From an uncultured Lachnospiraceae bacterium (GTDB lineage Bacteria; Bacillota; Clostridia; Lachnospirales; Lachnospiraceae), in NCBI GenBank assembly GCA_902793335.1, contig CADBCZ010000016.1, positions 1-64,000 of the forward strand: DNA of 64,000 nucleotides, given 5' to 3'. This document shows positions 25,540 through 52,450 of this stretch, piece after piece (the first letter of the stretch is position 1; every line of letters begins with the position of its first letter). The notes beneath the pieces are model-generated. The model saw only the letters and a list, made by a program, of their open reading frames with translations. It ran no database searches and was not told where the DNA came from. The position numbers and the translations under genes were made by a program.

Positions 25540-26205
25540 TTAATCTTTTTTGATCCAACCCCAGAAATCATTGTTGGAAAAATTCTTTCCGGATTTATTG
25601 GATATCAGATAATACTGTATCTTCTTTCCCTTATAAGGACCTGATGTAAATTCATTAGTACCACTGAGAATATCGCTTTTATTATCTTTTCTGGGATTGT
25701 TATCAGACCAGTCACCGTTGTAATAATAAATGTGTGGTGAATCCTCCTTGTCTATGTATAGAGCATAAAATACAGTATACTTGTCTTTATCAGTCACTTT
25801 TGCTGTAGGTGAGTAATTACTACCCACTGCTATCATATAACAATACGGTTCATTATCACCTGTAAGATCAGCTGTTTTGAGTATCTTTTTTGCAAAAGCT
25901 GTGTTAGTCGCATCACAATCACCATTATTCCCCGGCATCTTTGAACCGGGAATAATACTTGCGTTAGCTGCAATACCGCCACTCGTTCCTGCATACAATT
26001 CAACAAGAGCAGCCTGTGTTGCCGTCATAGCACTTCTGGCATTCAATATATACTGCTGCTTTTTTGACCTGTCGATATATCCCATCAGTGCAGGTATCAG
26101 CAATGCCGCTAAGACAGCTAAAATAACCAACACAACAATGAGTTCCACCAATGTGAAACCCTTGTTATTTCTATTATTGTTTTGTGAAGATTTACTGTAT
26201 CTCAT
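25540..26205 (-). CDS. Type IV prepilin-like protein, last gene of the pilus operon
   Basis: A 221-residue prepilin with a class III signal: a basic leader, then KG|FTLVELIVVLVILAVLAALLIPALMG (cleavage after glycine, glutamate at +5). The long hydrophobic helix is followed by YIDRSKKQQYILNARSAMTATQAALVEL, matching the probable major pilin at 33304. The globular part ends in aromatic, glycine-rich DFWGWIKKD. The start at 26205 is chosen because GGGAAG lies upstream; an ATG at 26229 abuts the pilB stop without a ribosome site. It may be a second major or a minor pilin. Confidence 0.9.
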   Translation of the reverse strand: MRYSKSSQNNNRNNKGFTLVELIVVLVILAVLAALLIPALMGYIDRSKKQQYILNARSAMTATQAALVELYAGTSGGIAANASIIPGSKMPGNNGDCDATNTAFAKKILKTADLTGDNEPYCYMIAVGSNYSPTAKVTDKDKYTVFYALYIDKEDSPHIYYYNGDWSDNNPRKDNKSDILSGTNEFTSGPYKGKKIQYYLISNKSGKNFSNNDFWGWIKKD

Positions 26206-26229
26206 CACATTCACTTCCCGTTTAAACAT

Positions 26230-28137: not shown

Positions 28138-29091
28138 TTATTCAGCAGATGTTTCAGGAACTTCATCAACGGACTCTTCCGTTTCCGAAGCTTCATCACC
28201 TTCAACAAGACCTTCTTTAAGTGCCTTAAATGCTGAACCGTCATACATATACATTTCAAAATTAACAACAAGTCTGTTGCCACTCTCTTCTGCTACCTGC
28301 ACAAGTTCCCCATCAACATATTCAAAAGGTGATGAAGTAAGATCACTCCATTCATAGGAAGTCACTCTAAATGCTTTATTATTAATAATTTCATCTAAAA
28401 GCGCCTGAACCTTATCATGATTACCATATACATCTAACATAAGAGATGCACTGTACACGTCTGCCTTTGTTGTATCCTCAATGTTATATATACCCTCATC
28501 ATTATTGATTGATGCAAGCGTTTCTATATTGACCATTCCATCTAATTCTGATGCATCTTTCTTGTCATCCGAAGTCTTTTTGGAATCTTTGTTTTTCTTT
28601 TTTGATTTTTTACCGATCTCTTCTTCAACAGCATTAACATTTTCCTCAGTCGCTGATGCTTCCAAAAGGTAATCAGCCGCCTCAATCGCCCTCTGTTTAG
28701 CTTTCCAGGCTTCTGAATTCTGATACGCAACTAACGCCACCGGTTCTTTTGGTGATTGTATACCGAAATTATTAACTTTAAGACCATAACTTAATGCTTT
28801 ATTGGTTATGAGTTTGTCAACATCCGCAGCGACCTTTCTCTCATAATATCTTGAAGACAACTCATCTGTCATCTTTTCAGCATTTTGCTTGAACTCTTCA
28901 ATCATATCCAATTGATAAATCTTCATCTTAATGGTATCATGAAGCACCTGCTCATCATCGAGTTTTTCATCAATTGCTTTGATCTTTCTGTTGAGCGGTC
29001 TTATACCGACTATAAAAAATAGTGCCGCAATGACAATCAGACCTAACATGTATAATAACTTTTTATCCCTAGCTGTAATTCCCGTTGTCAT
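28138..29091 (-). CDS. pilO: PilO-like pilus inner-membrane assembly protein
   Basis: A 317-residue protein with a short cytoplasmic N-terminus, one membrane helix (residues about 13-30) and a coiled coil (about 30-80), followed by a periplasm-type alpha/beta domain. This is the PilO/GspM layout. A lysine/serine-rich low-complexity insert lies near 165-185 (KKSKKKNKDSKKTSDDKK) and an acidic tail at the end. It begins four bases after the PilM/PilN gene, with GGGAGG upstream, and precedes pilB. It would form the alignment complex that links PilM to the pilin platform. Confidence 0.8.
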   Translation of the reverse strand: MTTGITARDKKLLYMLGLIVIAALFFIVGIRPLNRKIKAIDEKLDDEQVLHDTIKMKIYQLDMIEEFKQNAEKMTDELSSRYYERKVAADVDKLITNKALSYGLKVNNFGIQSPKEPVALVAYQNSEAWKAKQRAIEAADYLLEASATEENVNAVEEEIGKKSKKKNKDSKKTSDDKKDASELDGMVNIETLASINNDEGIYNIEDTTKADVYSASLMLDVYGNHDKVQALLDEIINNKAFRVTSYEWSDLTSSPFEYVDGELVQVAEESGNRLVVNFEMYMYDGSAFKALKEGLVEGDEASETEESVDEVPETSAE

Positions 29092-29095: not shown

Positions 29096-30565
29096 TCACC
29101 TCCCAGCACTTTCAGAAAGAATACATTCCAGATTGGCCACCCACTGACCTGAACTGTTGATTTCGGAATATCCTGTATAATTGACTTCGTAGAAACAATC
29201 CTCTGCATCTAGTCTGTCAATAAATGTATTAACCATATCAACCTCTTTGAACTTGGCTGTAATTCCTATCTTTCCCTGTCCGGCATCATAACTGTCCGTT
29301 GTTACCTCACCCAGTCCAACAGCCGCACGATCAATTATCTTTCCAATTTCAGATGTTGGTAGCGGATAACTGTCTATATTCTTTTCCAAAAGTCTCAAAG
29401 CATTCACATGACCACTGTACACTTCTACATTGGACGCTGCTATATCATATTCTGATGCCATCAAAACATTGGACGGATTCGTGTTATAATCCTGAAGCTC
29501 CTTAAGTTCGCTCTTTTTCTTAGAATATGTAACACCTCTCGATACAGTTATCATCAACATAAGCAAAAATACCGCTATATAAGGAATTGCAAGTTTGATT
29601 ATCTTATTACGCTTCTCCTGATCAACTACCTCACCTTTACCATACATCTTAAGAAGATTCTGATGTTCGGTAAGCTTCATGAGACCGGCAGTCGGATAAA
29701 ATGATTTATCAAGTGAATAATTAGAAGCTGAATACTTAGCTCCTTTCATTACACTAATATTATATACAACCATATCTTCAGACAAATTCATTGATATAGC
29801 TCTTTCAACATTAGACACATCATCATCTGTCATACCCGCAAGAAACACCTGTGCTATAGGATCTTCCACCTTTTCTGATTTTGAAAACTGCACAATCTGA
29901 CTTACCGTATTGGAAATCTCACCGGCAAATTCCAAAGTACCAGGCCTGTTAAATGTACGAGCAGTTGTTGAGTAGAAATATTCGCCTTTAACAAGATAAA
30001 TAGCTGTAACCGTCATTGCATCTCTAAGCATTACAACACTACTCTTATCCGGTGCAAAGTTAATCTTTTTAAGGAAATTGACAGACACTCCGATTCCGCT
30101 GTTAATTTCTTTTATCGCAATTCCCGCACCGGCAAATACATTAACGTAATTGGCTATGAAATCAACATCTGCCAATTCCGTACATACCTTCATCGTCTTA
30201 TTCTTTTTATTCTTGGTTATCACATAGAAACCAAGCAGTCTTTTTCTCTCACCCGAACGCTCCTCAAACTCACGCTGAAGATATATATCAGCTTTGTTCT
30301 GAGACATTATCGGCATATCAATCACTCTGACTGAAATCTGCGATGTATTGATTACAAGTCTTATTCCTTTCTTAGGAAGCTTGTATTGATTCCATAGCCC
30401 TGTAAGTGCATACTGAATTCCATCAGGGTCTGTTATTACACCATTTAAGAAACTACCCTCCGGCATAGGTGTAGAATACACATTACTAACGGATACCCCC
30501 TTACCGTTACTATGTCCTGAAAGAACCTCTATATCTGTATTGGATAAATAAACAGTTAGACTCAT
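29096..30565 (-). CDS. PilM-PilN-like fusion protein of the pilus alignment complex
   Basis: A 489-residue protein. Residues 1-about 320 resemble the actin-like PilM (short beta strands MSLTVYLSNTDIEVLSG, then IRLVINTSQISVRVIDMP and EINSGIGVSV). A basic stretch and one membrane helix (about 330-350, IPYIAVFLLMLMITVS) lead to a coiled coil and a PilN-like ferredoxin-fold domain to the end. The two proteins are usually separate genes; here one chain joins cytoplasmic and outside parts. The actin-like ATP site is degenerate. AAGGAGG precedes the start. Confidence 0.75.
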   Translation of the reverse strand: MSLTVYLSNTDIEVLSGHSNGKGVSVSNVYSTPMPEGSFLNGVITDPDGIQYALTGLWNQYKLPKKGIRLVINTSQISVRVIDMPIMSQNKADIYLQREFEERSGERKRLLGFYVITKNKKNKTMKVCTELADVDFIANYVNVFAGAGIAIKEINSGIGVSVNFLKKINFAPDKSSVVMLRDAMTVTAIYLVKGEYFYSTTARTFNRPGTLEFAGEISNTVSQIVQFSKSEKVEDPIAQVFLAGMTDDDVSNVERAISMNLSEDMVVYNISVMKGAKYSASNYSLDKSFYPTAGLMKLTEHQNLLKMYGKGEVVDQEKRNKIIKLAIPYIAVFLLMLMITVSRGVTYSKKKSELKELQDYNTNPSNVLMASEYDIAASNVEVYSGHVNALRLLEKNIDSYPLPTSEIGKIIDRAAVGLGEVTTDSYDAGQGKIGITAKFKEVDMVNTFIDRLDAEDCFYEVNYTGYSEINSSGQWVANLECILSESAGR

Positions 30566-30576: not shown

Positions 30577-31773
30577 TTATTTTGCACCGATTGATTGATA
30601 TGACTGGTAAATCGGTACAATAACTGAAATCATAATAAATCCTACTATTGCTGCCATTACAACGATCATTACCGGCTCAAGATACGCAACCATCTGACTG
30701 ATTGCACGCTCAGATTCAAATTCCATATCATCCGCAATCGAGTCAAGCATTGTATCAAGCGAACCCGCTTCCTCACCTACCCTTATAGATGATTCCAGCT
30801 TCTTAATAAAACCGTCAACCTTACCTATCGCAGAACTTAAAGACTCTCCTGCAGTAGTATCAGCGATAACTTTTTTGAATTGTTTTTCAATATATAGATT
30901 ACCGATAGTTTTGCTTGCTATATCCAGGCAGGAAATGATAGGTATTCCTGAAGAATATAATGAACTTAAAGTCCTTGCAAATCTCGCTGTATATATAACT
31001 TTAAATAACTTTCCAACCTTTGGAAGATGTATCTGCATTCTGTCAAGCATATAACACACGGCAGGTATCTTCTTAAGAAAATAAAAAAGCAAGAATACCA
31101 CTACTCCACCGATAAGTAATGCATACCAATATGCAACAACAAAATCACTTATCGCAAGCATAACCCGTGTAGGCAACGGTAACACCGGCATTGATGCAAA
31201 CAAAGAATCAAACTGTGGCATTACAAATCCAAATATTACAGCAACTACCAAAACAATAAGTCCTGACAATATCTTAGGATATGTCATAGCGCTCTTAACT
31301 TTTGAATTAAGTCTGTCTTCCTTGGTATATTGAGCTGCAATTCTCATTGCTGTGTCATCAAGACCACCACTCGATTCAGAAGCCCTAAACATATTGATAA
31401 TAAGTTGCGGGAATACTCCCCTCATTGATTCCATAGCAACTGACAAAGGAACACCCTGCATGACTTCTTTGGTGACGTCATTGTAAATCTTGCGCTCATA
31501 TGGTGTAACAGCTTCATCCTCCGAAAGCATCTGCAGACACCTTACAAGAGGAATACCCGAACGCATCAGTGTACCAATCTGTCTTGCAAACTCAGCAAGC
31601 GCTTTCGCCTTAAGAGGTTTATAATTGGCAGTCTTTGTCAAATCCTTTGCATCTATAAGCATCAATTTCTTCTGTTTAAGGCGATCATGAAGATCCTGTT
31701 CATCATTGGCAATCAAAACGCCAACAACTGTACCGCCCTCCGCATCCTGAGCTTTGTATCTGAAATTAGGCAT
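30577..31773 (-). CDS. pilC: Type IV pilus platform protein (GspF/PilC family)
   Basis: Integral membrane platform protein, 398 residues, with the two repeated T2SSF domains. The first starts near EFARQIGTLMRSGIPLVRCL, the second near RFARTLSSLYSSGIPIISCL. Three long helices are visible (about 168-188, 215-235 and the C-terminal VMIVVMAAIVGFIMISVIVP). It couples the PilB motor to pilin addition. AAGGAGG precedes the ATG; it is 11 bp from the next gene. Confidence 0.95.
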   Translation of the reverse strand: MPNFRYKAQDAEGGTVVGVLIANDEQDLHDRLKQKKLMLIDAKDLTKTANYKPLKAKALAEFARQIGTLMRSGIPLVRCLQMLSEDEAVTPYERKIYNDVTKEVMQGVPLSVAMESMRGVFPQLIINMFRASESSGGLDDTAMRIAAQYTKEDRLNSKVKSAMTYPKILSGLIVLVVAVIFGFVMPQFDSLFASMPVLPLPTRVMLAISDFVVAYWYALLIGGVVVFLLFYFLKKIPAVCYMLDRMQIHLPKVGKLFKVIYTARFARTLSSLYSSGIPIISCLDIASKTIGNLYIEKQFKKVIADTTAGESLSSAIGKVDGFIKKLESSIRVGEEAGSLDTMLDSIADDMEFESERAISQMVAYLEPVMIVVMAAIVGFIMISVIVPIYQSYQSIGAK

Positions 31774-31788: not shown

Positions 31789-32640
31789 TCAGCCGTGAAT
31801 AATGGCTGCAAGTTTCATATATGCATCAATAAGCTCCATACCGCATATGGTCGCTATCATATATCCTGTACATAAAAAAGGTCCAAAAGCAAAATGATCC
31901 TTCCTATCCTTCTTCTTACTAATCAATAATACAATTCCATATATACCACCCGCCAAAAGACCAATGAAAAATCCGATTATAACCAACTGCCATCCGATTA
32001 TAAGTCCTACAGCAGCAGACAGCTTCATATCTCCGCCTCCGAAAGCTCCGGGAATTGCAAACATAATAAGTAACATAGGAACGCTAATACATACTGCCCC
32101 TATAAGATGATCAATAATATTAATTCCGGGAAGAACCAACAATGCTACAACCGCTACATATAGTAGAACGATTACAAATCTGTTAGGTATCTCCATTGTA
32201 TCGAAATCTACCAAAAATACTAAATCTAGTATACAAAAAAATACAAAAATCGTCAATAAAATAAGCAATTTCCAAATGTCAAAATGAACCACTATATCTA
32301 GAGGTGAAGACATAACAAACGGTCCCGTAATTTCATCTGCATCACCAAACCGAAAAAACACCAGCAGCGCCGTCAATCCACCTATAATTTCATTAATGAA
32401 ATCCCTCTTAGGTATCTTCTCACCGCAATACCTGCATTTCCCCCTTAAGAAGATATAAGATAATACAGGAATTGTCTCATATGGTTTAAGCTGTGTCTCG
32501 CAGCTGTCACATGTAAAATGCTCTTTGAGTATCTTCTTTTCTTTTGGATAACGATATGCAATCACATTAACAAACGAAAAAGATACAGTTCCAATCATCC
32601 ATGTAAGTAAAATTGCAAGTATATATAAAAAAACTATCAT
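31789..32640 (-). CDS. pilD: Prepilin leader peptidase/N-methyltransferase
   Basis: A 283-residue A24-family aspartic membrane peptidase that cleaves the pilin leaders in this locus and methylates the new N-terminus. The N-terminal methyltransferase/zinc part has two CxxC pairs (CDSCETQ and CRYCGEKI). The two catalytic aspartates are in LVDFDTMEIPNRF and GGGDMKLSAAVG. Eight or so membrane helices. The final residues match an ending after IDAYMKLAAIIHG. It sits between the small unknown and pilC. Confidence 0.95.
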   Translation of the reverse strand: MIVFLYILAILLTWMIGTVSFSFVNVIAYRYPKEKKILKEHFTCDSCETQLKPYETIPVLSYIFLRGKCRYCGEKIPKRDFINEIIGGLTALLVFFRFGDADEITGPFVMSSPLDIVVHFDIWKLLILLTIFVFFCILDLVFLVDFDTMEIPNRFVIVLLYVAVVALLVLPGINIIDHLIGAVCISVPMLLIMFAIPGAFGGGDMKLSAAVGLIIGWQLVIIGFFIGLLAGGIYGIVLLISKKKDRKDHFAFGPFLCTGYMIATICGMELIDAYMKLAAIIHG

Positions 32641-33115: not shown

Positions 33116-33204
33116 CTATATACCCCCATTATATTATATAGTATTCATTCTCTTTGCTTAATATAAAACTAATTGAAAATTATATGTCTGTTTAATTATA
33201 AAAC

Positions 33205-33234
33205 ACCCCTCCTCCAACATATTGGAGGAGGGGT
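33205..33234 (-). terminator. Strong hairpin between the major pilin and the assembly genes
   Basis: A perfect 12-bp stem, ACCCCTCCTCCA/TGGAGGAGGGGT with a six-base loop, 70 bp after the pilin stop. On the minus strand a GTTTTATAATT tract follows. It would end most pilin transcripts and let a minority read into the assembly genes. Confidence 0.8.
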
Positions 33235-33303
33235 ACAAATCTTAATAGTTTCTTATAAATCTGTCGGTATAATCAATATATAACTCTTGATTATACATCA
33301 TTA

Positions 33304-33789
33304 TTACTCTACTGTCATATTGTCTGTATCCCAACTTCCATCTGAATCCATTGAGATAGTAACTTTTTTACCATCCTGAGATTTAAATATCATCTTTGTC
33401 AATTTATCAACAGTATATTTCTTATGACCAGATGTACCCTTGTATGAAACAGGGTTACTTGCAGAATTCAAAGCAGTTGCAGAGGTACCCGTTCCTTCTA
33501 AGAGAGTTGTCGGAGTAACCAACTTGTCAATCGCTTCACAATCAGCTTTATCAGATAAATTAACCTGATTTCCGCTCTTAGCATATCTCTCATCACTAAC
33601 AGCCTGAACTGCTGTATAGATCGAACGTGCTTCCTCTAAGTACTTAGAATTTCTTGCTCTGTCAATGTAACCGAGTAATGCCGGTACAAGTAATGCTGCC
33701 AGAATTGCAAGAATAACCAATACAACAATCAATTCAACGAGTGTAAAACCTTTCTGGTCTTTCTTAAGTGATTCAAGTCTCTTCTTCAT
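33304..33789 (-). CDS. pilA: Probable major type IV pilin
   Basis: A 161-residue prepilin. The leader MKKRLESLKKDQKG is cut before FTLVELIVVLVILAILAALL (E at +5). The helix runs on into YIDRARNSKYLEEARSIYTAVQAV, and the globular part is small and rich in T/S. The start at 33789 has AAGGAGG eight bases upstream; in-frame ATGs further up have none. Its own strong promoter, a perfect terminator just downstream and the small size point to the major subunit, while the other pilins lack a private promoter/terminator pair. Cleaved by the prepilin peptidase at 31789. Confidence 0.88.
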   Translation of the reverse strand: MKKRLESLKKDQKGFTLVELIVVLVILAILAALLVPALLGYIDRARNSKYLEEARSIYTAVQAVSDERYAKSGNQVNLSDKADCEAIDKLVTPTTLLEGTGTSATALNSASNPVSYKGTSGHKKYTVDKLTKMIFKSQDGKKVTISMDSDGSWDTDNMTVE

Positions 33790-33846
33790 AATCAATTCCT
33801 CCTTATACATATAAATTTCTTTTAATTCACACACTATTGTGTGCAC

Positions 33847-33868
33847 GTATAATATGTGCATATTATAC
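33847..33868. promoter_or_regulatory. 22-bp palindromic operator candidate at pilA
   Basis: GTATAATATG-TG-CATATTATAC is a perfect 10-2-10 inverted repeat. It covers the -10 box and the expected start of transcription of the pilin promoter. The position suits a dimeric repressor. Part of the symmetry comes from the TATAAT box itself, so chance is possible. Confidence 0.5.
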
Positions 33869-33890
33869 CATCTTTTGCTAGATTTGTAAA
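33862..33890 (-). promoter_or_regulatory. Strong sigma-A promoter of pilA
   Basis: TTTACA and TATAAT are separated by 17 bases on the minus strand, with TGG before the -10 box (extended type). The expected start is near 33855, giving a leader of about 65 bases. The rest of 33891-34076 is AT-rich spacer downstream of the minor-pilin gene. Confidence 0.85.
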
Positions 33891-34076: not shown

Positions 34077-34919
34077 TCAAGGAGCAATATCACTGTATAA
34101 AGTTGCCTCGTCTGTCGGTATATATTTCACTGTATTTTGCAAATCCACCCTTCGTTCCTTCTGATACACTGTCTCAGCACCATTTTCATCCTTGACATAT
34201 ACAATAACATCAACATAATCTACGATTTTATTGCCACTGCCATCATCATGTGGAGCAACTTTGAATTCAAGTTCTATCTTATGTTGCTGATAAAAGCTTT
34301 CAGGTAGCTTTTCCTGAGCATGCCATACAACCTTCTGTCCTATATATGAATTGAGCGCTGCGGCATTACCTGCTTCTGTGCCAACAACAATCTTATCCTC
34401 AAATAACTTCTTGTATTGAGGATTAATCTCTGCCGATCTTCCATAATATCTCATAGTAAGATATCCACTCTTTAAATCAGCCTTGTTAGTAGTTGTTCCA
34501 TTCACAGTCACTTCTCTTAAAATATTATCGCCACCATTTATCAGTAAATCATTACATCCTTTTGCATCAATCAGAACAGCATTCTCGTTATCATTAATAT
34601 TCGAGGTAATAAATTCAAGTGTTTTTCCGGTATATGCATCACTTGTATCACGGAGTTTAACATATCCGTTCAAGCCCTCCGAACTTCCCTGCATGGTTCT
34701 GATCTCTTCCTTTAACTCCGAAATCACACCATCAGCAACTGTATAAGCACTCATCCTCTGTTGTTCATCAAAAAAGAAAATGATAGCATGAGAAATACAC
34801 ATAGTCGCTGCACCCATAAAAATTGCAAGCAAAGCAAATGTCACAATAAGCTCCACCATTGTAACACCTTTGTTTTTACGCATTATTACGTTATGTCTGT
34901 TATTATGCGAACGTCTCAT
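34077..34919 (-). CDS. Minor prepilin (PilW/GspJ-like)
   Basis: A 280-residue prepilin. The leader ends in RKNKG and the mature start is VTMVELIVTFALLAIFMGAA (valine at +1, E at +5). The hydrophobic helix is followed by a region with DEQQRMSAYTVADGVISELKEEI, typical of larger minor pilins. AGGAGAG lies three bases before the ATG at 34919. Last gene of the upstream pilin operon. Likely part of the tip-initiating complex with the genes at 35004, 35417 and 35980. Confidence 0.85.
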   Translation of the reverse strand: MRRSHNNRHNVIMRKNKGVTMVELIVTFALLAIFMGAATMCISHAIIFFFDEQQRMSAYTVADGVISELKEEIRTMQGSSEGLNGYVKLRDTSDAYTGKTLEFITSNINDNENAVLIDAKGCNDLLINGGDNILREVTVNGTTTNKADLKSGYLTMRYYGRSAEINPQYKKLFEDKIVVGTEAGNAAALNSYIGQKVVWHAQEKLPESFYQQHKIELEFKVAPHDDGSGNKIVDYVDVIVYVKDENGAETVYQKERRVDLQNTVKYIPTDEATLYSDIAP

Positions 34920-35003: not shown

Positions 35004-35396
35004 TCAGTCTCCTGTCGAAAACAAATACAATTTCCTTACATTATCATCAGTGTCATCATTCGTGACAACATACTCATCATCATTTCTCTTGAAACTGACA
35101 TTTGCAGTGTATAACTTATAATCAAACTCATCAACGACTTCTCCGGACTCTCCTTTCACTTTAAATGTATAAGTGATTTCATCCCCACTTCCAAGCTTAT
35201 ATCCATCTTCGTCTTTAAATTTTTCAGCAACCGCTCTTTCAAAGTAAGAGTTTTTTCTGTCAACATCAGTTGCTTCCCTAAGAAGATTAGATGCAAACTT
35301 TATACTGCTGTATAATATAACCATTACCAGAGTAAGCATTACAAACGCAACCAATATCTCTATCATGGTCATACCTTTATTACATCTTTTATTCAT
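35004..35396 (-). CDS. Minor prepilin (PilV/GspI-like)
   Basis: A 130-residue prepilin with leader MNKRCNKG and mature start MTMIEILVAFVMLTLVMVIL (E at +5). Short globular part of beta strands. The start at 35396 has AAAGGAG eight bases upstream; the ATG at 35426 overlaps the neighbour and has none. It is 20 bp downstream of the PilX-like gene. Size and order (X, V, W) fit a minor-pilin initiation complex. Confidence 0.85.
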   Translation of the reverse strand: MNKRCNKGMTMIEILVAFVMLTLVMVILYSSIKFASNLLREATDVDRKNSYFERAVAEKFKDEDGYKLGSGDEITYTFKVKGESGEVVDEFDYKLYTANVSFKRNDDEYVVTNDDTDDNVRKLYLFSTGD

Positions 35397-35416
35397 TTTG
35401 CTCACTCCTTTCAACT

Positions 35417-35950
35417 TTACTCCCAATGGTTATAATATCCCAGGAATTTATAAGTTGTGTAACCTTCCTTATTATCAATTTCATATTTGCATACGCATGA
35501 AGACATAACCTTATCTTCATCTGAAACAGAAATCGTTATAACAAGATTTCCCTGAAACATAGCGCTTCTGTCAAGATCCAGTGTTATTTTGCCATACACC
35601 CCTTTTGCATCCGCAACAAGTTTTTCCTTTTGCGGTGCACCTTCGTTATCATTTTCCATAAATGCATCAATATGATTAACCAATGCATCAGTAGATGAAC
35701 CGCTTACACTCTTCTCCTCCAACCTGTCTTTTAACACTTCAGAAAACGACATAGCCTGCTGGTAATACAGTTCATCTCTTCCTTCATCATTTACTGTGGC
35801 AAGCATCTGATATGCAGACATAAGCAACGTAAGAGAAAGGATCATAATGACCGCCATAACACACACCACAACTATCATGGCAGCGCCACGGTTACGTTGT
35901 TTCCGCATATTATTCTGTTTTTGTAATTGTCTATTGAATACTATGCTCAT
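35417..35950 (-). CDS. PilX/GspK-like pilus protein
   Basis: A 177-residue protein with a basic leader (RKQRNRG) and a hydrophobic helix AAMIVVVCVMAVIMILSLTLLM. The helix has no glutamate at +5, as in PilX/GspK, the pilin that caps the tip complex. The body is acidic and helical, then beta-rich (GKITLDLDRSAMFQGNLVITISV). It follows the giant prepilin by 29 bp. Lack of E5 fits the tip position, since no pilin sits above it. Confidence 0.78.
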   Translation of the reverse strand: MSIVFNRQLQKQNNMRKQRNRGAAMIVVVCVMAVIMILSLTLLMSAYQMLATVNDEGRDELYYQQAMSFSEVLKDRLEEKSVSGSSTDALVNHIDAFMENDNEGAPQKEKLVADAKGVYGKITLDLDRSAMFQGNLVITISVSDEDKVMSSCVCKYEIDNKEGYTTYKFLGYYNHWE

Positions 35951-35979: not shown

Positions 35980-38900
35980 TTATGGCAATGTTATCGGCTG
36001 CACCATTTTCACCACAACAGGCTTACAATATGCCTCATCATATTTTGCATCCTTGTCTCTAACTCTGACCAAAGCATAATAATAATATTTATCCCAATCA
36101 TATGTCTTTTTATTAGTCGGGGTAATAGCACATTTTTCTTTTGCCACTATATCATCACCTGTGTCAAATGGTACTAAGTCCTCAAAATCTTTAACAGTCG
36201 GCGCTACAGGTTCTTCCACCTCAGCTTCTTCTGATTCTGTTTCTTCTGGCTCTGGTTTTGCAACCTGATATATTCTTACATCAACATCACATAGAATGTC
36301 TTTTCCATCAGGATCACCATAATATGTTGGACTCATCTTCCATGTAACAATATTACCCTCAGCAGATATTGCTTCATTACCGCTTTCATCTGTTTGAACT
36401 GATGATATGGTTTCTTCACATTCTCTGTACAGAATCTTACTACTATCTGAAGAATTTTTACCATATCTATCATCTGCAATCGGAGCTACATAATAATATT
36501 TGTAGTTACCTTCACCGCCACTGACATCAATGAGTAGTCCATCATCTCTAGCGCCCTCAAAACTCTGCTTGATTTCATTAAAGTAACCTAATGCAGCTGT
36601 CTTGGCCTGTTCCTCTGTAAGCTCTATGTACTGAGCAAAACCTCTATGTTCCTGTTTTTCTTCAGAATCATTAAGATTACCATCACAATACCATACTGCA
36701 ACATGGAAATCATGATATTCATTAAGATGAATATTAGCATTCTCATCACCTTTGATTGAGAATGAAATAACAGCATTTCCAGAACCCTTATTCATCTTCT
36801 GATCATCACTAAGTAAAAGAGTAACCGCCTCATTCTTATCGTTATAAGCATATAATTCGTATCTGTAGTATTCATGCAAAGTACTCGGTGCGTTATAGGT
36901 TAATTTACCACTAAAGCTAATATCCTTAACCTTACCATTATCAGTATCTCTTTCAGTAATTCCAAATGAAGTTTCAGAAAGTTTATAATTGACTTTAAGC
37001 GCACCATACAGATTATCCTGTAGATTAACACTCTTTCCTTGCGGACTATACGTAAATACAGGAGAATCGTAGTATCCTTCCTTCTTTGCTACAAATGTTT
37101 TCTTTCCATTACCCGGTGTCATCTTTCCTGCATATCCTAACAGAACACCCAGCTTATCACTAAGTTTATTAGACGTATCAATTTTACAAGCGGCATCCTC
37201 ATCAACACTTATCTCTGCACCTATACCCTCATAGGCCTCCGGATTAAGGAGTTTTGCATACCAACTTGGATCGCGATCAACACATACAATCTCAATCTCC
37301 GGCTTAGGTAACTGAACAGAATGGAAATAATATTTAGTTTTGGTATCAGAGCTGCCCGCAGAAATATCTGTGATAAATCCGCTACCCCTTTCTTTATCGG
37401 CAGCAAGAGCCGAAGGAGTCTCAAAGTAATTATATGCGCCCTGTCCTGTACCCGAATACCAGTAATCTATCTTGTATTCATCGTAATCAAACTTAACATC
37501 GGATGCAGCATCAAAGTAACCAATCTTGATATCCTCAGATTCACCTTCAGACAGATATATCTCTTTCTTAGCTAAGGTCTTATGTACTACTTTTCCTTCC
37601 TCATCCGTCTTAACACCATACAATTCAACAGTAAATACCTGTGGAACTGTAGGATGAAGCTTGCTGTCATACTTATTATAAGTCAAGGTTCCGGCATAAT
37701 AAGGTTTCGCATCAGTTAAATGATCTCCTTCTTCATCAGGTGTAAGTGTAAAGTCTATTTCTTTCGGATGACAAGACGTCGGTACAAAAGCAGTAATCAT
37801 TGTTTTCTCTGAATCAATACAATTATCTGATTTTGCTATAGCGAATATCTCCTGTCCTGCCGCATCCTTCTTAAATGCCATCGCAGATACTGCATTGCTA
37901 ATAACTTGTGTCTGATATGCAGCATCAGATGTAAATGTTATATCCGATGGAAGAATATCAACACTATTAGCTTCATTCTTACCACTCATGGTATAAGCAT
38001 GAATCTTGAAATTAGCATCACCTGTATATTCTTTGTATGCATCTGCGTTCTTAAGATGAAGCATCCACTGCTCTCCGTATGCTACAATCTCAATCTCAGG
38101 AGTTGCAAGCTTTGGTACTAGTTTGATATAGCTTCTTGCAGTATCCTCATCTGTCAGATCACTATAATTACTATCTGTACCTCTTGCATCCTTAACATCA
38201 ACTACTGCATAATAATCTTTATTGGTATCCATCATCATATCTTCAGGCTGAATAAATGTGGTTGTTGTACCATAAGCTTTCTTAGGATCTGTGTTATATT
38301 CATTCAGCAAATAATCTTTGTCTTCATCTAAATATTCATCCTTTTTATCAAAGCTGAATGTTCCCTTATCTACTGCAATATAACGTATTCTCACATCAAA
38401 TTCCGTTGCAGATACCACCGTATTACCGGAACCCGGTGTAACATCCCATTTCACCTCATAGTTACCCATTGTTTCACTCTTAGAAACATTAACATTCTTA
38501 ATTATATCCGGATTATTATTTTTGTTATTCTCTATAAAGTCGACAAAACTATTATCAAGTTCAGAATAATCCATATCATACTCATCAGCAGACGGAAGAC
38601 GACTTCCGCTTACCTTAGCTTCAAGATTTACTCCACTATTATTTGAAGCTTCACTATCTCTATAATCCTTTGATTTTTTCAATCTGTCAAAATAGAAGTG
38701 ATCAACCAATTTGTAATTATAAGGTTCCTGGCTGCCTTTTTCACTAAACGTGTACAACACCGGAACTTCTACAGAAGTAGTATAGTTAGTATTTTTACGA
38801 ATATATACTTTTTCGCCGTCAGTATATGTATTATATTCATCATAGTCATTAGGCTGGTATCCTTGAGGTTCTTTAAACAGAATATATCTGGTAACATTCT

Positions 38901-41900
38901 TATCATCTTTGTATTGTGCAGATATAATTCTCTCTGAAGCCAATATTTTTGCACTTTGTTCGTTATAATACAAACTTACCGGATTACAGTAATTAATATT
39001 TGAGTTACCTATCCTACTTAACGGCAATAATCCTGACGCATAATCATTATATGAAATCAAAGCATTAATACGATTTGCGTGAATATTACCACTGCCTAAA
39101 CCAAAGAAGTCCAATATCGAACCAAATATACGACCCAAAAGACTCTTATCATCATTATATTGGAATGATATTTCGTCTAAATAATAATTGTTACCACAAT
39201 ATTTGTATGTTTTATAATTATTATCAGGTGTCCCTGATTTATAATATGAAACAGCTCCTCTTTTTGCATCATTATTACTATATGTATCTTTTCCGTTACT
39301 GGTATTATAACCAAACATTCTTACACCAAAACAGTTTCTCACGGTTGTATAACCTGTTTGAGGAGCACCATCTGCATACGGATCTCTTCCGGAATTAATC
39401 GCTCCTGCGTTACGTGTAAACTCAGTTCCTATAGCATTAGTCTGTCCACTGTATAACTGTGATGTATAACTACGACACATATCTATGTTTACAAAGATAC
39501 TGTTAACAGTTTTAGGTTCATTATTTCCGTCCTTTGCAAAACATCCAATTGTACCAAGTATTCCGGCTGCTTTAGAATTAGCATATACTCTTGAATCCAC
39601 ACCATTGACACAATCTTTGATATTAACAGTATATAAATCTATACTTTGTGGAGCTGATATCTCACCAACGATACCACCCACATCATTCGATGTCATTTTA
39701 CCGTATCTGTTCTTAATGATACATGTATCATAATCTGTTCCACGCATAGGAAAAGCGATAATTCCATGATTCTGGCAGTGAAGAACATTATTAACCTGAT
39801 CAGGTCTAAGATCAGTATAATGAGCAACTATACCACCTGATGTACCACTATATCCTTTAGTACCTGTAAAACTACATGTAAAACCATCAATTAAGAATCC
39901 GTAATTATATGAGTACTGGACTGTTCCTCCATTACCCTTAAGTTGTGCGATTACTCCTCCTGTGTTATTACCGAAATAATTAAGTACAGTTCCAACATTT
40001 ACGCATTTCTCAACTACCCAATTAGGATTATCAACATTATTCTGCGTTCCAATAACTCCACCTACATAGTAAAAATTGTGGTTATAATTCATGTTAGTAA
40101 CCTGATTATCAGAATTAAGCGCTGAATCAGGAATAGTAGGCAATTCCGTTCTTACATATGCAAAATTAACATTGTATTCAACAGATGCACCCAATCCATT
40201 TTTGCTGTCAGCCACCTTATCGTCTGCCGAATTCATACCGATAACACCACCGACAGCATTATACTTAACTTTCGGCAAATAGTTCTCAACAACCCATTTA
40301 CCTGAGGCACATTTCTTAACTTTACCGGAAGTAGTATTATAACCTGCTATTCCTCCAATATAACCTCTTCCTTTATTGAGTGAGATTATATAATCATTAG
40401 CACTGACATCATATTTCAAAGTTGTTCCATCTGTATCATACTTAGGGAAAGCGTATACATAATTATCAGGATCCGCAGGTATTGTACCAAGTAATTTTGA
40501 TGCACGTGCAGATATTTCTTCAGTCTCTTCATTCTTGAATAATTGATTAAGACTCTTAACAGCCGGTCTTGACACAGCTTTATCATCAGAAGATACTTTT
40601 TCAAGTTGAGCAACAGCATCATCAACCAGGCTCATATCAGCCTTCTTCTCACCATCAACTTTCAATCGGCCATCCTTCAATACAAATGCATTATCTGTAT
40701 ATCCGCAACCATTTAACTCACCCATATTAATGGCACATATTCCGCCAACCATTCCATTATCAGTATTAATCTTGCTTTGATTCATTGTATCATCAGCATT
40801 CTTAAGACTTGTAACGTAGCAATTTTTTATACTTGAATACTGATAGTTAATTCCACAGACACCACCCACTGCTGAACTTGTTGATATCTTCTGTTTCTCG
40901 TTTGAACTGTCTGTAAAGTTTGCGGTTCCCTTAACATCAATTTCCGCACCAATAACGTAGCTATTCTTTACAACCGCATTAACAACAGAATCAGAATCTG
41001 CCTTCTTCTCTGAACCATTCTTACCAACCACGCCACCGATAGTCAGACCTGCAGAACTTCTCTTCTTTTTTATACTTCCACCGAATTTACAATTATTAAC
41101 ATCGCCGCAATTATAACCTACAACACCACCGATACAATTAGCCTGACCTTCATCAACAAAGTCAAATGTAACATCAATATTCTTAACAACGGCATCTTTT
41201 GAGTTAGTTCCGACAGCTCCACCAATTATAAGTTTTGTCTTATTAGATTTGTATCCAAGATACTTACCTAATCTGCCATTATTAACAACACCATCATTTC
41301 TACCTACAAGATAGCCAAATGTATCCATATCATTTCCGATTATGATGATCTTATCATCAACACCTGTTACTTTCGCAATTGAACAATCACAATCAGATAC
41401 GATACAATCCTTATGATTGACAGATGTTATAGCACCTGCAACAATCATATTACCCTTTATCTGCGGAACATAAGGCTTATTATCATGATCTTCTTCTGCT
41501 GCCGCCCTATCAACAAGACAATCCTTCATAAAACCAAAGTTTTCTGATGCAATTCCTGCCGACACGCCTTTAGTAGCACTTGGACTACCATAAGACTCAC
41601 ACGCTTTAATATATCCGCCCTCGCCGTTAACTCCAAGCACACCACCAACGAAATCATTACCAGAAGTATCACCGTAGTTAAAGCAGTTAAGCATATGAGG
41701 ATGTGCTGAATCTGATATCCTGACATAACCGTCATCATCATTTTCAGTCACCTTATTATCTTTAAGACCGGCAATATATAAGTTACCGACAATGCCTCCG
41801 ATAAATGATACATCATCACCCAATACATTTGCCTTATTAACAATCGATTTTGTCTCATTTGCCGCAAACAGGCTTATGTCGGATTTTTCATAACTTGTTA

Positions 41901-44298
41901 CATTCTTCTTTCCACCGTCAGGGCTAAGTACCTTAGTTGTGACTGCACCGTTTCTCTTCTTCATCACAATATATCCATTTTCATTATCTGAAGAAAGAGC
42001 ATTATAAGAAGCAATCGTATCTTTATCTACACCGATTCCGAATCTGGTAGAATCCTTATCATATTTTCCGTAAACATATCCAAATACACCGCCTACTCCG
42101 TAAGAATAATACTGTGCATTAGAAACAGTCTCACCTACAGATGTATCCGGTGTCTCATTATATATTTCTTTTCTGGCGTCTTCATCCGACACATCAGGTG
42201 CCTCTTTAAAATCTGTATCTTTTCCTGTAACTTTTCCTTTAACATTTCCTGATGTCAATATTCTGTCGATAGACGCATTCTTCTTAAGAGCCACAGTTCC
42301 TGCAGCCATTCCGACACCCGAACCATATCTCTGATTCAGATTCTTTCTGTTTTCAGCATTACTTATATCAATACCGTTATCCTTAGCTTCATTAGTATCA
42401 TTAAGATTTGCAAAAACCGCTGCTTCAATCTTACAATCTTTATCGAAATATATCTCTCTTATATCACCTTCATTACGACCACACAAAACTCCGGCTGCCT
42501 GAAGACTATCTGAATAAATAGCTTTTCTTGTCGCCTCATCTCCTGTTGCTCCATCTGATTTATCATAGTCTTCCTTAGATATTACCTTTGCGTCTGCTTT
42601 AGATACGATAATTCGTTTGAGCATACCCTTATTAATTCCGAACAATCCAAGTGTTGTAGACTTGTTAACAGGTAGTACTCCGGCACTTGCTGTAATGACC
42701 TTGCCATCATCACCATGTTCATAAGCTACTGAGCTCTTATTACTTAATTTATAATTGGCAAGCTGATTACCATTACCATCAAAAACACTTTTTGAATTAA
42801 GCTTTGATATCGTTGGAAATACAAAATTATTATCATCTTTGGGAATTGAATAATAAGAGAAATCAGCATTTACCTCTCTGTCAAGTCCGTCATATATAAC
42901 TGCATCATTAAAATCCAGATCTTTTGTAAGCAGGTATTTGTGTTCTTCCTCTTCACTCTTAGCATAATCCTCATTATATCTGATGTTTGATAAATGACGA
43001 TTTCTTGAAATCAGATATGCAGACGCAACGTCATAGTAACTTGCAAAATCCCCCGTCTCTTCCTTAGTAGCATACAAAGAATTCTCCGTATTTGATTCCA
43101 TAGGTCTGCTCGATGAATATGTTGTGGGATCTAACGGCTCAACGGTTACGCTGGCTAAGATATTCTTAGGTGTGGTTCCGATAAGTCTTGTAATACTGTA
43201 CCCTGCATTATCTGTTCTACCGGTCACAGTATCAGCCTCATCAAGAACAGCCATGGATTGTTCCGTAGAAAGCGCATCAAGTATTACAGAAAGATAAAAG
43301 CCATCTTCTTCATCTTCATGTTCGTTAAATGAAACAACAAACTGAAAATCATCTATCTTCTTACCTTCTGAATCATAAGCAGGAATATTATCAATGAGAA
43401 CAGGTTTATTCTTATCATTCGTACCATACATGCTAACTAGCATATTTCTGGAAATTGAAAAATTACACAATACAGGCTTGGCATCTGTATCTTCAAGCAA
43501 TGTAATATTAAACACCGTATCGGCTTCCGCATTTTCAGAAGAGCTCTTAAGAGTTAAAAACAGGGTTTCTTCATTATGCAGCTCACATTCAACCATCTTG
43601 AGCTGTGGAAGATTGTCAAGTTTGACAACATTTACCTGATCAGCACTGTAATAACCCACCTGATAATTCTCTCTAAACTCAGGTGTTCTTCTGTCAGCAG
43701 TAATAAAGAAATCCCCTCTCTCCACACATGAAGATGAATCGTTATATCTAATAGACGTAGACCAATTGCTGTAAAATGCAGAATAAACCTTCTTAGCAGT
43801 AAGATCAAACTCTACGACGATAGATGCATTCAGCTGTTCTGAATCAGAGACATAGGTCTCTAACATTTTAAACAACGGTTTTTCCGGATGAGCAACATAA
43901 TCACCCTGATTGACTACAAGATATCCGTAATCATGAGTTTCGCCCTCATTGTCAGTATCCCTTGGTATACCATATGTGGCTTTATCAAGGCCGGGATCAC
44001 CTGTGTTCTTTGCAAACTTTACAATGCCGTCGCTGCCACCTTCAAAACTCTTCATATATTCGTCTAGAGTACCTCTACTCTCCGCAGCAGAAAGAGCAGA
44101 CTGAGCTGCCATATAAATAGTCTTTGCCTTTTCCTCACTGCTCACGTACTCATAATGAGAGATCCAAGCCGTAACACCCCATACGGCTGAACCCATCATG
44201 ATAGCCATTATCGTAAGAACCACTATCATTTCAACCAGCGTAAAGCCTGCATTAACCTTTCGCAATATTCTCTTATCTTTCATGATTTGATGATTCAT
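35980..44298 (-). CDS. Giant prepilin-anchored adhesin with GLUG-like repeats
   Basis: A single frame of 2772 residues (about 300 kDa). Residues 1-18 are a prepilin leader, with cleavage before F19-T-L-V-E23 and a pilin helix (MIVVLTIMAIMMGSAVWG). Residues about 25-250 look like a pilin head. From about 400 to 1650 there are many glycine-rich repeats of GLUG type (IGGVVGYNCGDVNNC, VGGVCGINYQYSSIKNC, IGGIAGYNTTSGKV), expected to build a long beta-helix. From about 1850 to the end are several Fn3-like or beta-sandwich units with repeated KPEIEIV or TPEIEIV starts, then an acidic ETESEEAEVEEP stretch. It probably forms an adhesive pilus tip. Ribosome site GGCGGTGA. Confidence 0.88.
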   Translation of the reverse strand: MNHQIMKDKRILRKVNAGFTLVEMIVVLTIMAIMMGSAVWGVTAWISHYEYVSSEEKAKTIYMAAQSALSAAESRGTLDEYMKSFEGGSDGIVKFAKNTGDPGLDKATYGIPRDTDNEGETHDYGYLVVNQGDYVAHPEKPLFKMLETYVSDSEQLNASIVVEFDLTAKKVYSAFYSNWSTSIRYNDSSSCVERGDFFITADRRTPEFRENYQVGYYSADQVNVVKLDNLPQLKMVECELHNEETLFLTLKSSSENAEADTVFNITLLEDTDAKPVLCNFSISRNMLVSMYGTNDKNKPVLIDNIPAYDSEGKKIDDFQFVVSFNEHEDEEDGFYLSVILDALSTEQSMAVLDEADTVTGRTDNAGYSITRLIGTTPKNILASVTVEPLDPTTYSSSRPMESNTENSLYATKEETGDFASYYDVASAYLISRNRHLSNIRYNEDYAKSEEEEHKYLLTKDLDFNDAVIYDGLDREVNADFSYYSIPKDDNNFVFPTISKLNSKSVFDGNGNQLANYKLSNKSSVAYEHGDDGKVITASAGVLPVNKSTTLGLFGINKGMLKRIIVSKADAKVISKEDYDKSDGATGDEATRKAIYSDSLQAAGVLCGRNEGDIREIYFDKDCKIEAAVFANLNDTNEAKDNGIDISNAENRKNLNQRYGSGVGMAAGTVALKKNASIDRILTSGNVKGKVTGKDTDFKEAPDVSDEDARKEIYNETPDTSVGETVSNAQYYSYGVGGVFGYVYGKYDKDSTRFGIGVDKDTIASYNALSSDNENGYIVMKKRNGAVTTKVLSPDGGKKNVTSYEKSDISLFAANETKSIVNKANVLGDDVSFIGGIVGNLYIAGLKDNKVTENDDDGYVRISDSAHPHMLNCFNYGDTSGNDFVGGVLGVNGEGGYIKACESYGSPSATKGVSAGIASENFGFMKDCLVDRAAAEEDHDNKPYVPQIKGNMIVAGAITSVNHKDCIVSDCDCSIAKVTGVDDKIIIIGNDMDTFGYLVGRNDGVVNNGRLGKYLGYKSNKTKLIIGGAVGTNSKDAVVKNIDVTFDFVDEGQANCIGGVVGYNCGDVNNCKFGGSIKKKRSSAGLTIGGVVGKNGSEKKADSDSVVNAVVKNSYVIGAEIDVKGTANFTDSSNEKQKISTSSAVGGVCGINYQYSSIKNCYVTSLKNADDTMNQSKINTDNGMVGGICAINMGELNGCGYTDNAFVLKDGRLKVDGEKKADMSLVDDAVAQLEKVSSDDKAVSRPAVKSLNQLFKNEETEEISARASKLLGTIPADPDNYVYAFPKYDTDGTTLKYDVSANDYIISLNKGRGYIGGIAGYNTTSGKVKKCASGKWVVENYLPKVKYNAVGGVIGMNSADDKVADSKNGLGASVEYNVNFAYVRTELPTIPDSALNSDNQVTNMNYNHNFYYVGGVIGTQNNVDNPNWVVEKCVNVGTVLNYFGNNTGGVIAQLKGNGGTVQYSYNYGFLIDGFTCSFTGTKGYSGTSGGIVAHYTDLRPDQVNNVLHCQNHGIIAFPMRGTDYDTCIIKNRYGKMTSNDVGGIVGEISAPQSIDLYTVNIKDCVNGVDSRVYANSKAAGILGTIGCFAKDGNNEPKTVNSIFVNIDMCRSYTSQLYSGQTNAIGTEFTRNAGAINSGRDPYADGAPQTGYTTVRNCFGVRMFGYNTSNGKDTYSNNDAKRGAVSYYKSGTPDNNYKTYKYCGNNYYLDEISFQYNDDKSLLGRIFGSILDFFGLGSGNIHANRINALISYNDYASGLLPLSRIGNSNINYCNPVSLYYNEQSAKILASERIISAQYKDDKNVTRYILFKEPQGYQPNDYDEYNTYTDGEKVYIRKNTNYTTSVEVPVLYTFSEKGSQEPYNYKLVDHFYFDRLKKSKDYRDSEASNNSGVNLEAKVSGSRLPSADEYDMDYSELDNSFVDFIENNKNNNPDIIKNVNVSKSETMGNYEVKWDVTPGSGNTVVSATEFDVRIRYIAVDKGTFSFDKKDEYLDEDKDYLLNEYNTDPKKAYGTTTTFIQPEDMMMDTNKDYYAVVDVKDARGTDSNYSDLTDEDTARSYIKLVPKLATPEIEIVAYGEQWMLHLKNADAYKEYTGDANFKIHAYTMSGKNEANSVDILPSDITFTSDAAYQTQVISNAVSAMAFKKDAAGQEIFAIAKSDNCIDSEKTMITAFVPTSCHPKEIDFTLTPDEEGDHLTDAKPYYAGTLTYNKYDSKLHPTVPQVFTVELYGVKTDEEGKVVHKTLAKKEIYLSEGESEDIKIGYFDAASDVKFDYDEYKIDYWYSGTGQGAYNYFETPSALAADKERGSGFITDISAGSSDTKTKYYFHSVQLPKPEIEIVCVDRDPSWYAKLLNPEAYEGIGAEISVDEDAACKIDTSNKLSDKLGVLLGYAGKMTPGNGKKTFVAKKEGYYDSPVFTYSPQGKSVNLQDNLYGALKVNYKLSETSFGITERDTDNGKVKDISFSGKLTYNAPSTLHEYYRYELYAYNDKNEAVTLLLSDDQKMNKGSGNAVISFSIKGDENANIHLNEYHDFHVAVWYCDGNLNDSEEKQEHRGFAQYIELTEEQAKTAALGYFNEIKQSFEGARDDGLLIDVSGGEGNYKYYYVAPIADDRYGKNSSDSSKILYRECEETISSVQTDESGNEAISAEGNIVTWKMSPTYYGDPDGKDILCDVDVRIYQVAKPEPEETESEEAEVEEPVAPTVKDFEDLVPFDTGDDIVAKEKCAITPTNKKTYDWDKYYYYALVRVRDKDAKYDEAYCKPVVVKMVQPITLP

Positions 44299-44354: not shown

Positions 44355-44828
44355 TTAATTCTCCGTTACCGTCCATATTTCCTTGTCTGCCCCTGTACCG
44401 TTCTTATAATACTTGGCAGTAAATGTTCCGTCATTATATGTCATATTTGATATTATATACATCTTATTTTCAGGATTAGAACTGTTAAATGCCTTCTCAT
44501 ACACTATCTGATATGGTGGTGTGCCTGCTTCAAACTCTATACCCGTCAATTCACTCATTCTATCCATAGTAATTCGTAAATCCGGATCAACCAGATCATT
44601 ATGTGCATCTTCCACCATAGACTGGGCTGCAAGATAAATCTTCTTTGCATCATTTAGTGTTGAATTCATTCTTGCCTTATCTATATAACCAAGAAATGCA
44701 GGACCAACCGCCGCGGCTAACAATGCTATTATTACGAGCACAACAACAAGCTCGACAAGAGTAAATCCGTTCTCATCAGCAATAACCGTGTCTAAAATAT
44801 TCTGTTTGCAATTATTATGATCACGCAT
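44355..44828 (-). CDS. Type IV prepilin, first gene of the pilin operon
   Basis: A 157-residue prepilin. The leader is long (about 20 residues, ending in ADENG) and cut before FTLVELVVVLVIIALLAAAV (E at +5). The helix continues into YIDKARMNSTLNDAKKIYLAAQSM, close to the major pilin pattern. The ATG at 44828 with GGGTGA upstream is preferred over a TTG two codons earlier. A strong promoter lies 55-90 bp upstream. It may be a minor pilin (GspH-like) that pairs with the giant tip protein. Confidence 0.87.
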   Translation of the reverse strand: MRDHNNCKQNILDTVIADENGFTLVELVVVLVIIALLAAAVGPAFLGYIDKARMNSTLNDAKKIYLAAQSMVEDAHNDLVDPDLRITMDRMSELTGIEFEAGTPPYQIVYEKAFNSSNPENKMYIISNMTYNDGTFTAKYYKNGTGADKEIWTVTEN

Positions 44829-44886
44829 AAACAATCACCCAAATCCCAGTATTATATATAATTTATCGACAATTATAGCCTTTTAA

Positions 44887-44915
44887 ATTATAGCATTTTT
44901 ATAACACAATGTAAA
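44887..44915 (-). promoter_or_regulatory. Promoter of the pilin/giant-adhesin operon
   Basis: TTTACA and TATAAT are 17 bases apart on the minus strand. The spacing and boxes match the pilA promoter, but no palindrome overlaps it. It starts directly after the rho terminator. Confidence 0.8.
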
Positions 44916-44920
44916 CAAAA

Positions 44921-44942
44921 AACCCGGGTGTCCACCCGGGTT
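44921..44942 (-). terminator. Rho-independent terminator of the rho gene
   Basis: AACCCGGGTG/CACCCGGGTT, GC-rich and perfect, followed on the minus strand by TTTTTTG, 26 bp after the rho stop. Confidence 0.93.
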
Positions 44943-44967
44943 TTGCTATATATTTACAATATTCTTT

Positions 44968-52446: not shown

Positions 52447-52450
52447 TAGT

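Follow-up and report, generated by a model that had tools for sequence, protein, structure and literature searches.

A giant prepilin with glycine-rich repeats in a type IV pilus gene cluster of an uncultured Lachnospiraceae bacterium, a candidate tip adhesin

Introduction

The grafting of an adhesive module onto a minor pilin is an established arrangement in type IV pili, including those of Gram-positive bacteria (PMC8179133, PMC9934059, PMC6916266). Modular pilins have been catalogued as 264 architectures in over 1200 proteins, with 860 residues for the extreme multi-domain case cited and 50.5 kDa for PilB (PMC8179133), and very large (>50 kDa) modular minor pilins have been noted in Gram-positive pili (PMC6916266). 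In the general model of pilus assembly, the H, I, J and K minor pilins form a tip complex at which assembly starts, with a cap subunit that lacks Glu5 (PMC10191384).

Here, we describe a prepilin of 2772 amino acids, about ten times the usual pilin size, that is encoded within a pilus gene cluster of an uncultured Lachnospiraceae bacterium. The window, i.e. the whole stretch of DNA analysed, comprises positions 1-64000 of a 64374-base contig in a draft genome of 3.6 Mb and 157 contigs.

A giant prepilin among pilus genes

The giant and its leader are located as follows.

35980..44298, minus strand: giant prepilin, a single open frame of 2772 codons with an ATG start and without an internal stop
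44245..44298, minus strand: class III leader, residues 1-18, with cleavage predicted from the motif between G18 and F19

A Shine-Dalgarno-like GGCGGTGA can be read by eye a few bases 5' of the ATG. The N-terminus of the giant, MNHQIMKDKRILRKVNAG followed across the predicted cleavage site by FTLVEMIVVLTIMAIMM, has the make-up of a class III prepilin signal: a leader ending in Gly, about 20 hydrophobic residues and Glu at mature position 5. Both the Pfam family N_methyl (28.9 bits vs the cut-off of 21.2, residues 13-38) and the NCBIfam family IV_pilin_GFxxxE (23.2 bits vs 16.3) match above the cut-off, and the predicted mature protein has 2754 residues, a mass of 303 kDa and a pI of 4.75, in agreement with the preliminary description, which had reported a prepilin signal on a chain of roughly 300 kDa. 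Among the 11 N_methyl matches in the same genome, ten fall in frames of 141-433 amino acids and one is the giant (2776 stop to stop). Pilin anchoring of the giant is supported by these signatures. At 2772 residues, the protein breaks the length rule of the prediction program PilFind (at most 350 amino acids, with a training-set maximum of 333; Gram-positive pilins, PMC3244431), so that such a predictor would miss the giants by design. The limit is a rule of the program, not a structural definition, and modular pilins break it too.

The pilus genes of the window lie on the minus strand, and genes for PilB, PilC, PilD, a PilM-like and a T2SSM-like protein lie in the same run as the giant.

44919..44944, minus strand: terminator-like hairpin between the unit and rho (5 such hairpins found in the window vs 5.2 expected)
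44887..44915, minus strand: strong promoter-like site TTTACA-17-TATAAT with an extended -10, 5' of the first pilin gene (a consensus match only; 72 such sites found in the window vs 57 expected)
44355..44834, minus strand: small prepilin of 159 aa that opens the presumed transcription unit (Pfam and NCBIfam)
35417..35950, minus strand: K-type (GspK/PilX-like) minor pilin, 177 aa, with a hydrophobic N-terminus without Glu5 and no Pfam or NCBIfam family above the curated cut-off
35004..35426, minus strand: I-type (GspI/PilV-like) minor prepilin, 140 aa (Pfam and profile comparison)
34077..34919, minus strand: J-type (GspJ/PilW-like) minor prepilin, 280 aa (Pfam and profile comparison)
33304..33861, minus strand: prepilin, 185 aa, likely major pilin (Pfam and NCBIfam)
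32657-33115, minus strand: small protein with a single hydrophobic segment, matched by no family above the cut-off
31789..32640, minus strand: prepilin peptidase PilD (A24_N_bact and Peptidase_A24; none from NCBIfam)
30577..31773, minus strand: platform protein PilC/GspF (family matches)
29096..30565, minus strand: PilM-like protein (PilM_2 and TIGR01175, both below the cut-off)
28138..29091, minus strand: PilN/O or GspM-like protein (T2SSM, 31 bits, cut-off 27.8)
26230..28074, minus strand: extension ATPase PilB/GspE, with an MshEN c-di-GMP-type domain
25540..26229, minus strand: prepilin, 229 aa (Pfam and NCBIfam)

The genes adjoining the giant are thus of the K (PilX), I (PilV) and J (PilW) types, as the preliminary description had read them. 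The 185-aa prepilin has its own extended -10 promoter-like site (33862-33890) and a 15-pair terminator-like hairpin (33203-33236), both of them consensus matches only, with terminator-like sites about as numerous as chance would give; on this basis it is the candidate major pilin, possibly with separate strong expression. The MshEN domain of the extension ATPase lies above the cut-off (64.6 bits vs 38; 55 vs 23.1 in a second scan), and therefore, pilus extension may be under c-di-GMP control. Elsewhere in the genome, there are two PilT/PilU-family ATPases above the cut-off and a second pilus cluster (contig C4).

The window also encodes a 1188-aa protein (4651-8217) with regulator-propeller, Y_Y_Y and HD domains; we take the HD domain to be HD-GYP-like, and a c-di-GMP link between this protein and the MshEN pilus ATPase is possible. 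Three signal peptidase I (S26) genes cluster at 51778-54579, with one other gene, GTPase-like by eye, before the third, and adjacent genes for FlhB C-terminal-domain-like and FliK-like proteins are found at 48734-50889. The scan of the window yielded no Rfam match above the gathering score and no tRNA.

Integrity and conservation of the frame

A frame of this size in a draft assembly of 157 contigs might be an artefact, i.e. the product of a frameshift, a chimeric join or a pseudogene. However, four orthologues from other genomes (L037, L038, L039 and L043) align through the last residue of the giant, the remaining ones ending earlier or stopping at contig ends, and in comparisons with each of the three orthologues tested, conservation is higher at codon positions 1 and 2 than at position 3 throughout the seven 400-residue bins. 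The frameshift or assembly join, which the preliminary description had named as the finding that would undo it, is rejected on both grounds; the giant is not a fusion artefact, and any artefactual origin of the frame appears extremely improbable.

The orthologues, with 45-57% identity, come from eight of the 98 relatives searched, all but G027 belonging to the genus, with three candidates scored per genome, a procedure that divergent giants could escape. Some match was obtained in 33 of the 98 relatives, in many merely over the helix of ordinary pilins. By eye, the TAG in the G001 orthologue precedes its ATG (match from 1910, open frame from 1919). The phages searched contained no match to the giant.

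When the giant is compared with nine orthologous sequences, the mean identity amounts to 0.68 at residues 12-161 and 0.675 at residues 912-1061, which equals the conservation of the pilin module, and 0.32-0.42 beyond residue 1662 (0.34-0.42 beyond residue 1962). Gaps grow toward the C-terminus, in part because contig ends cut some of the orthologues. This gradient is what would be expected of a conserved anchor with a fast-evolving binding end, and could reflect such an organization; relaxed constraint would look similar.

Distribution of the giants

The preliminary description had proposed that the protein may represent a little-described adhesin class of gut Clostridia and suggested looking for other giant prepilins in Lachnospiraceae. 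In family, order and class samples, drawn evenly from larger groups, genomes were counted by hand when the matched frame had at least 1000 amino acids stop to stop, with the genome of the window included. With a profile of the N-terminal module, such frames are found in 43 of the 397 family genomes (E <=1e-12), although G436 matches the later part of the module only and G553 the helix only; any match to the module at the same threshold is found in 67 of the 397. The order sample yields at least 22 of 295 genomes, and the class sample 8 of 391 (E <=1e-15), four of these outside the order. The N-terminal profiles were built from giants found with the window protein or with the first such profile.

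A scan of named genomes produced 37 loci, eight with a prepilin frame of more than 1000 amino acids and 29 others that are mostly ordinary pilins. The named giants come from an uncultured Dorea (3375 aa), from Lachnospiraceae metagenome genomes (2229-3367 aa for the complete ones) and from two Clostridia metagenome genomes (2947 and 1613 aa). The largest giant is a 7664-residue prepilin-signal frame in G485:C19 (L108:1-16566 minus; L109:12578-19201 minus), and the same genome encodes a 3515-residue giant on another contig. Large prepilins also occur in tandem, at L103:3003-19401 (3220 and at least 2098 aa) and at L058:6562-16783 (1129 and 2268 aa).

The set of giants was reduced from 65 entries to 63 by removal of L057 and L061, two loci on contigs already counted, and then to 62 by removal of L124_14825, a 5'-open fragment that is probably not a prepilin; L041, L054 and L109, which hold pieces of giants, were left out of the count. 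Several of the 62 run off the end of the locus, so that their lengths are minima. The giants are not confined to one locus but make up a class, with putative adhesin function, that occurs in some members of the family and in certain other Clostridia.

Modular architecture

The giant can be divided into the following parts.

43624..44244, minus strand: pilin module, residues 19-225, with a long hydrophobic helix and Glu5 (alignments)
43069..43626, minus strand: linker module, residues 225-410 (profile)
42382..43065, minus strand: entry module RHL..NIRY, residues 412-639, leading into the repeat region (profile)
39589..41799, minus strand: GLUG-type glycine-rich repeats, a putative beta-helix, residues ~834-1570 (Pfam and motif count)
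38137..38556, minus strand: C-terminal module, residues 1915-2054, resembling residues 2590-2772 (probability 85.8)
37348..38151, minus strand: C-terminal tandem repeat, copy 1, residues 2050-2317 (profile comparison)
36499..37344, minus strand: C-terminal tandem repeat, copy 2, residues 2319-2600 (profile comparison)

The pilin module contains the motifs A..AAQ.L and I.IEFD..G.VYS.FYS, and its profile matches pilin and pseudopilin chains among solved structures, for the most part along the N-terminal helix. Of the 62 giants, 42 contain a match to the linker profile and 57 a match to the RHL entry profile, the latter broken into short pieces in some of them. These counts lean toward the giants, many of which are included in the alignment from which the two profiles were built.

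In the repeat region, a single Pfam GLUG match exceeds the cut-off (residues 1141-1163, 22.6 bits vs 20.5), and the rung motif GG[IVAC][IVCLAY]G occurs ten times in residues 401-1700, whereas 1000 shuffles gave 0.12 occurrences on average and never more than 3; the GLUG-repeat region of the preliminary description is borne out by these matches at the level of sequence only. The glycine-repeat motif is present at least five times in 46 of the 51 giant frames checked; it is absent from L122, L131 and L058_6562 and occurs once each in L050 and L117. At E <=0.01, Pfam GLUG is detected in 5 of 14 and 5 of 15 giants in two sets. The combination of a pilin module with a module that is not pilus-specific, GLUG in the giant and CBM_2 in a giant from the same genus (L049), is that of modular pilins.

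The beta-sandwich of the preliminary description would be a putative fold; what can be seen in the C-terminus is a pair of tandem repeats. These two C-terminal tandem repeats of about 265 residues (profile-profile probability 98.8, E 1.3e-16) emerge by profile comparison alone: BLAST of the giant against itself finds no self-repeats, and Pfam does not detect them. Profiles of these repeats match 11 and 7 of the 62 giants, nearly all from the genus and G027, with 2-3 copies in complete proteins. Among solved structures, there is no match to the full-length orthologue profile at E <=0.1 or to the C-terminal profile at E <=10. The PilY1 beta-propeller domain PF05567 is not among the Pfam matches of the giant at E <=0.1.

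A second GLUG protein of the same genome (L035:1540-8847, contig C24, 2436 aa) starts with a Sec-like signal by eye; it was rejected as a paralogue of the giant given this N-terminus, the lack of a prepilin signal and the absence of a search match to it.

Conserved neighbourhood and the proposed place of the giant in a tip complex

The association of the giants with minor pilins extends beyond the window. Of the 63 giant frames, 52 have at least 2.5 kb of downstream sequence, and 50 of these 52 are accompanied by an E5-type prepilin, no more than 3 kb away on the downstream side or 2.5 kb on the upstream side, tandem giants counting each other; none of the 43 control ORFs taken from elsewhere in the window has such a neighbour. 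The giants without one are L123 and L124_14825. An uncharged N-terminal run without E5 characterises the ORF directly downstream in 43 of the 52 giants vs 4 of the 43 controls, under a loose rule that overstates the K-type genes, as at least four of the 43 downstream ORFs of giants (L105, L110, L114 and L125) turn out to be different proteins. The three ORFs that follow the giant can be read by eye as K, I and J in 28 of 41 loci inspected; minor pilins are found upstream of the giant in L051, L122 and L125, and the K-I-J set is missing downstream in L050 and L110. In G027, large size extends to the neighbouring I- and J-type minor pilins (L042:12665-15999), which have 579 and at least 529 aa.

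Among the 26 genomes of the genus, the giant co-occurs with the PilM of this system in eight, is present alone in one and is absent together with PilM in 17, with no genome containing PilM alone (Fisher p 5.8e-6; giant presence was scored on three candidates per genome, by which a divergent giant could be missed). The sole genome with a giant and without PilM is a fragmented assembly (430 contigs, 80% complete).

These observations bear on the possibility that the giant is a bitopic adhesin anchored in the membrane of the cell, with a borrowed class III signal, and is not built into pili. A class III signal alone guarantees only export and cleavage, which is compatible with such an anchor; the location of the giant among minor-pilin genes, its co-occurrence with PilM in the genus and the conservation of the pilin-like module past the signal all point the other way, and we regard this possibility as quite improbable.

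If the giant is a pilus subunit, its place can be sought among the minor pilins. The window contains a K-type gene without Glu5 along with I- and J-type genes, with similarity detected over the N-terminal helix only, and because these genes flank the giant, we infer that it fills the remaining H-type place and would be carried to the tip. When compared with the E. coli K-12 pseudopilins, the module of the giant scores 95.8 with GspG, slightly above 91.9 with GspH; the J profile matches GspJ best, the I profile fits GspI and GspJ equally, and the K profile reaches at most 4.2, with no Gsp protein matched well. Once the first 30 residues are left out, the giant, K, I and J proteins show no similarity to GspG-K. 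The comparison with GspG-K, with GspG and GspH about equal, is not decisive for the H-type identity, and given this near tie and the helix-only similarity, the assignment to the H slot follows from the neighbours and by elimination. Against solved structures, the K-type profile matches no pilin, and the J-type profile finds one pilin at E 0.0014, along with weak matches to others. All 62 giants carry Glu5, a residue contained in the motifs with which they were picked. A small pilin is encoded upstream of the giant in the window, as it is at certain other loci, and could rival the giant for the H place. If grafted onto H and not onto the cap, a module would project sideways from the tip.

Ligand clues and proposed role

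In the giant of the window, Pfam recognises no ligand-binding domain. Among the 37 other giants scanned (8 + 14 + 15), the cellulose-binding domain CBM_2 exceeds the cut-off in one, the 3866-aa protein of the same genus (L049:3293-14839; 44.6 bits vs 24), where it lies behind a Thr/Pro-rich stretch, inside a 600-residue gap in the glycine repeats. The gene upstream in this locus differs from rho, which lies beside the cluster of the window. A CBM_5_12 match in L053 is below the cut-off, Peptidase_M26_N is just above the cut-off in the giant of one relative, and single giants in the set of 15 show matches to F5_F8_type_C, Flg_new and Peptidase_M26_N (cut-offs not shown). Thin as they are, these domain matches point to polysaccharide binding, a hint that fits the reports that type IV pili of Ruminococcus take part in cellulose adhesion (PMC3672088).

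The most probable reading, in our view, and one that is likely to be correct, is that the giant is a modular minor pilin at the pilus tip that binds surfaces, a covalent analogue of the PilY1 tip adhesin. Under this scenario, the class III signal would direct the N-terminal helix into the membrane, PilD would cleave after Gly18, and the giant would join the K-, I- and J-type minor pilins in the complex that initiates assembly and, because it starts the pilus, would end up at the tip. The small pilin module would serve as the anchor, with about 2500 residues projecting from the pilus, namely the linker, a rod of GLUG-type repeats and a fast-evolving stalk of C-terminal repeats. The projecting part would attach to a ligand on a surface, in all likelihood a glycan or a plant or mucus polymer, and pilus retraction would then pull the cell toward the bound surface. 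The giant would thus do covalently what the separate PilY1/PilC tip protein does in Gram-negative pili.

The pilin-borne module might instead serve mainly in DNA uptake, in cell-cell recognition or aggregation, or in an enzyme-like role. The Peptidase_M26_N matches, in one relative (just over the cut-off) and in one further giant, would fit such a function, although this is the non-catalytic N-terminal region. The CBM_2 domain of L049, the below-cut-off CBM_5_12 of L053 and the one F5_F8_type_C match suggest glycan binding instead. Even with the precedent of the beta-solenoid of Thermus ComZ, which is thought to bind DNA (PMC8179133), a role other than adhesion seems unlikely.

A broader proposal, on which our judgement is evenly balanced, is that the giants define a distinct class of type IV pili in a part of the Lachnospiraceae and related Clostridia, with the tip adhesin covalently embedded in a minor pilin and encoded in a giant-K-I-J cassette. 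The pilin, linker and entry modules would be conserved, whereas the rod and stalk would be exchanged between lineages, in places via CBM inserts (e.g. CBM2) in the glycine-repeat rod, to yield a species-specific grappling tip for plant fibre or mucus. The subunits of up to ~7600 residues would possibly be the largest pilins known.

Comparison with known systems

If the adhesin reading is correct, about a tenth of the sampled family genomes (43/397) carry pilus-borne giant adhesins, for which searches of open-licence PMC papers yielded no earlier description. The giants would then give genetic access to the way in which Gram-positive bacteria of the gut and rumen may grip fibre or mucus by type IV pili, bear on the question of what replaces PilY1 in monoderm pili, and imply that pilus machines export and assemble subunits of at least 300 kDa.

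The giant is a far larger variant of the known modular pilins, organised as a class. No prepilin of its size turned up in searches of open-licence PMC papers, although the dataset of PMC8179133 may include longer modular pilins. The view, expressed in the preliminary description, that a pilin-anchored giant tip protein is an unusual solution for a Gram-positive pilus has to be qualified: grafting onto minor pilins is nothing new, and it is the size and the recurring, lineage-diversified architecture that are unusual.

GLUG-motif surface proteins resemble the giant in the GLUG match over the Pfam cut-off and the G-G-hydrophobic rungs, but the L035 protein of the same genome starts with a Sec-like signal, and the giant with a prepilin signal. 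Extra beta-rich domains on a minor pilin are also found in CofB/TcpB and in ComZ, the latter with a beta-solenoid (PMC8179133). They differ from the giant in that the solenoid of ComZ is inserted in the pilin beta-sheet and CofB serves a separate secreted adhesin, CofJ. CofB, TcpB and ComZ are far smaller than the giant.

PilB and PilC of the Gram-positive T4aP of Streptococcus sanguinis share with the giant the class III signal and the combination of a small pilin module with a C-terminal effector; they act in adhesion, and a tip complex has been proposed for them (PMC8179133, PMC9934059). Mature PilB, however, has 50.5 kDa and one vWA module, compared with the 303 kDa, repeat rod and stalk of the giant, and S. 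sanguinis employs PilABC instead of HIJK (PMC10191384), whereas the window has K-, I- and J-type genes. PilY1/PilC with FimU-PilVWX (PilHIJK) resembles the proposed arrangement in that a large modular adhesin is combined with a minor-pilin tip complex (PMC8179133, PMC10191384). The difference is that PilY1, with its beta-propeller domain, does not belong to the pilins, whereas in the giant, the putative adhesin part is covalently joined to the pilin.
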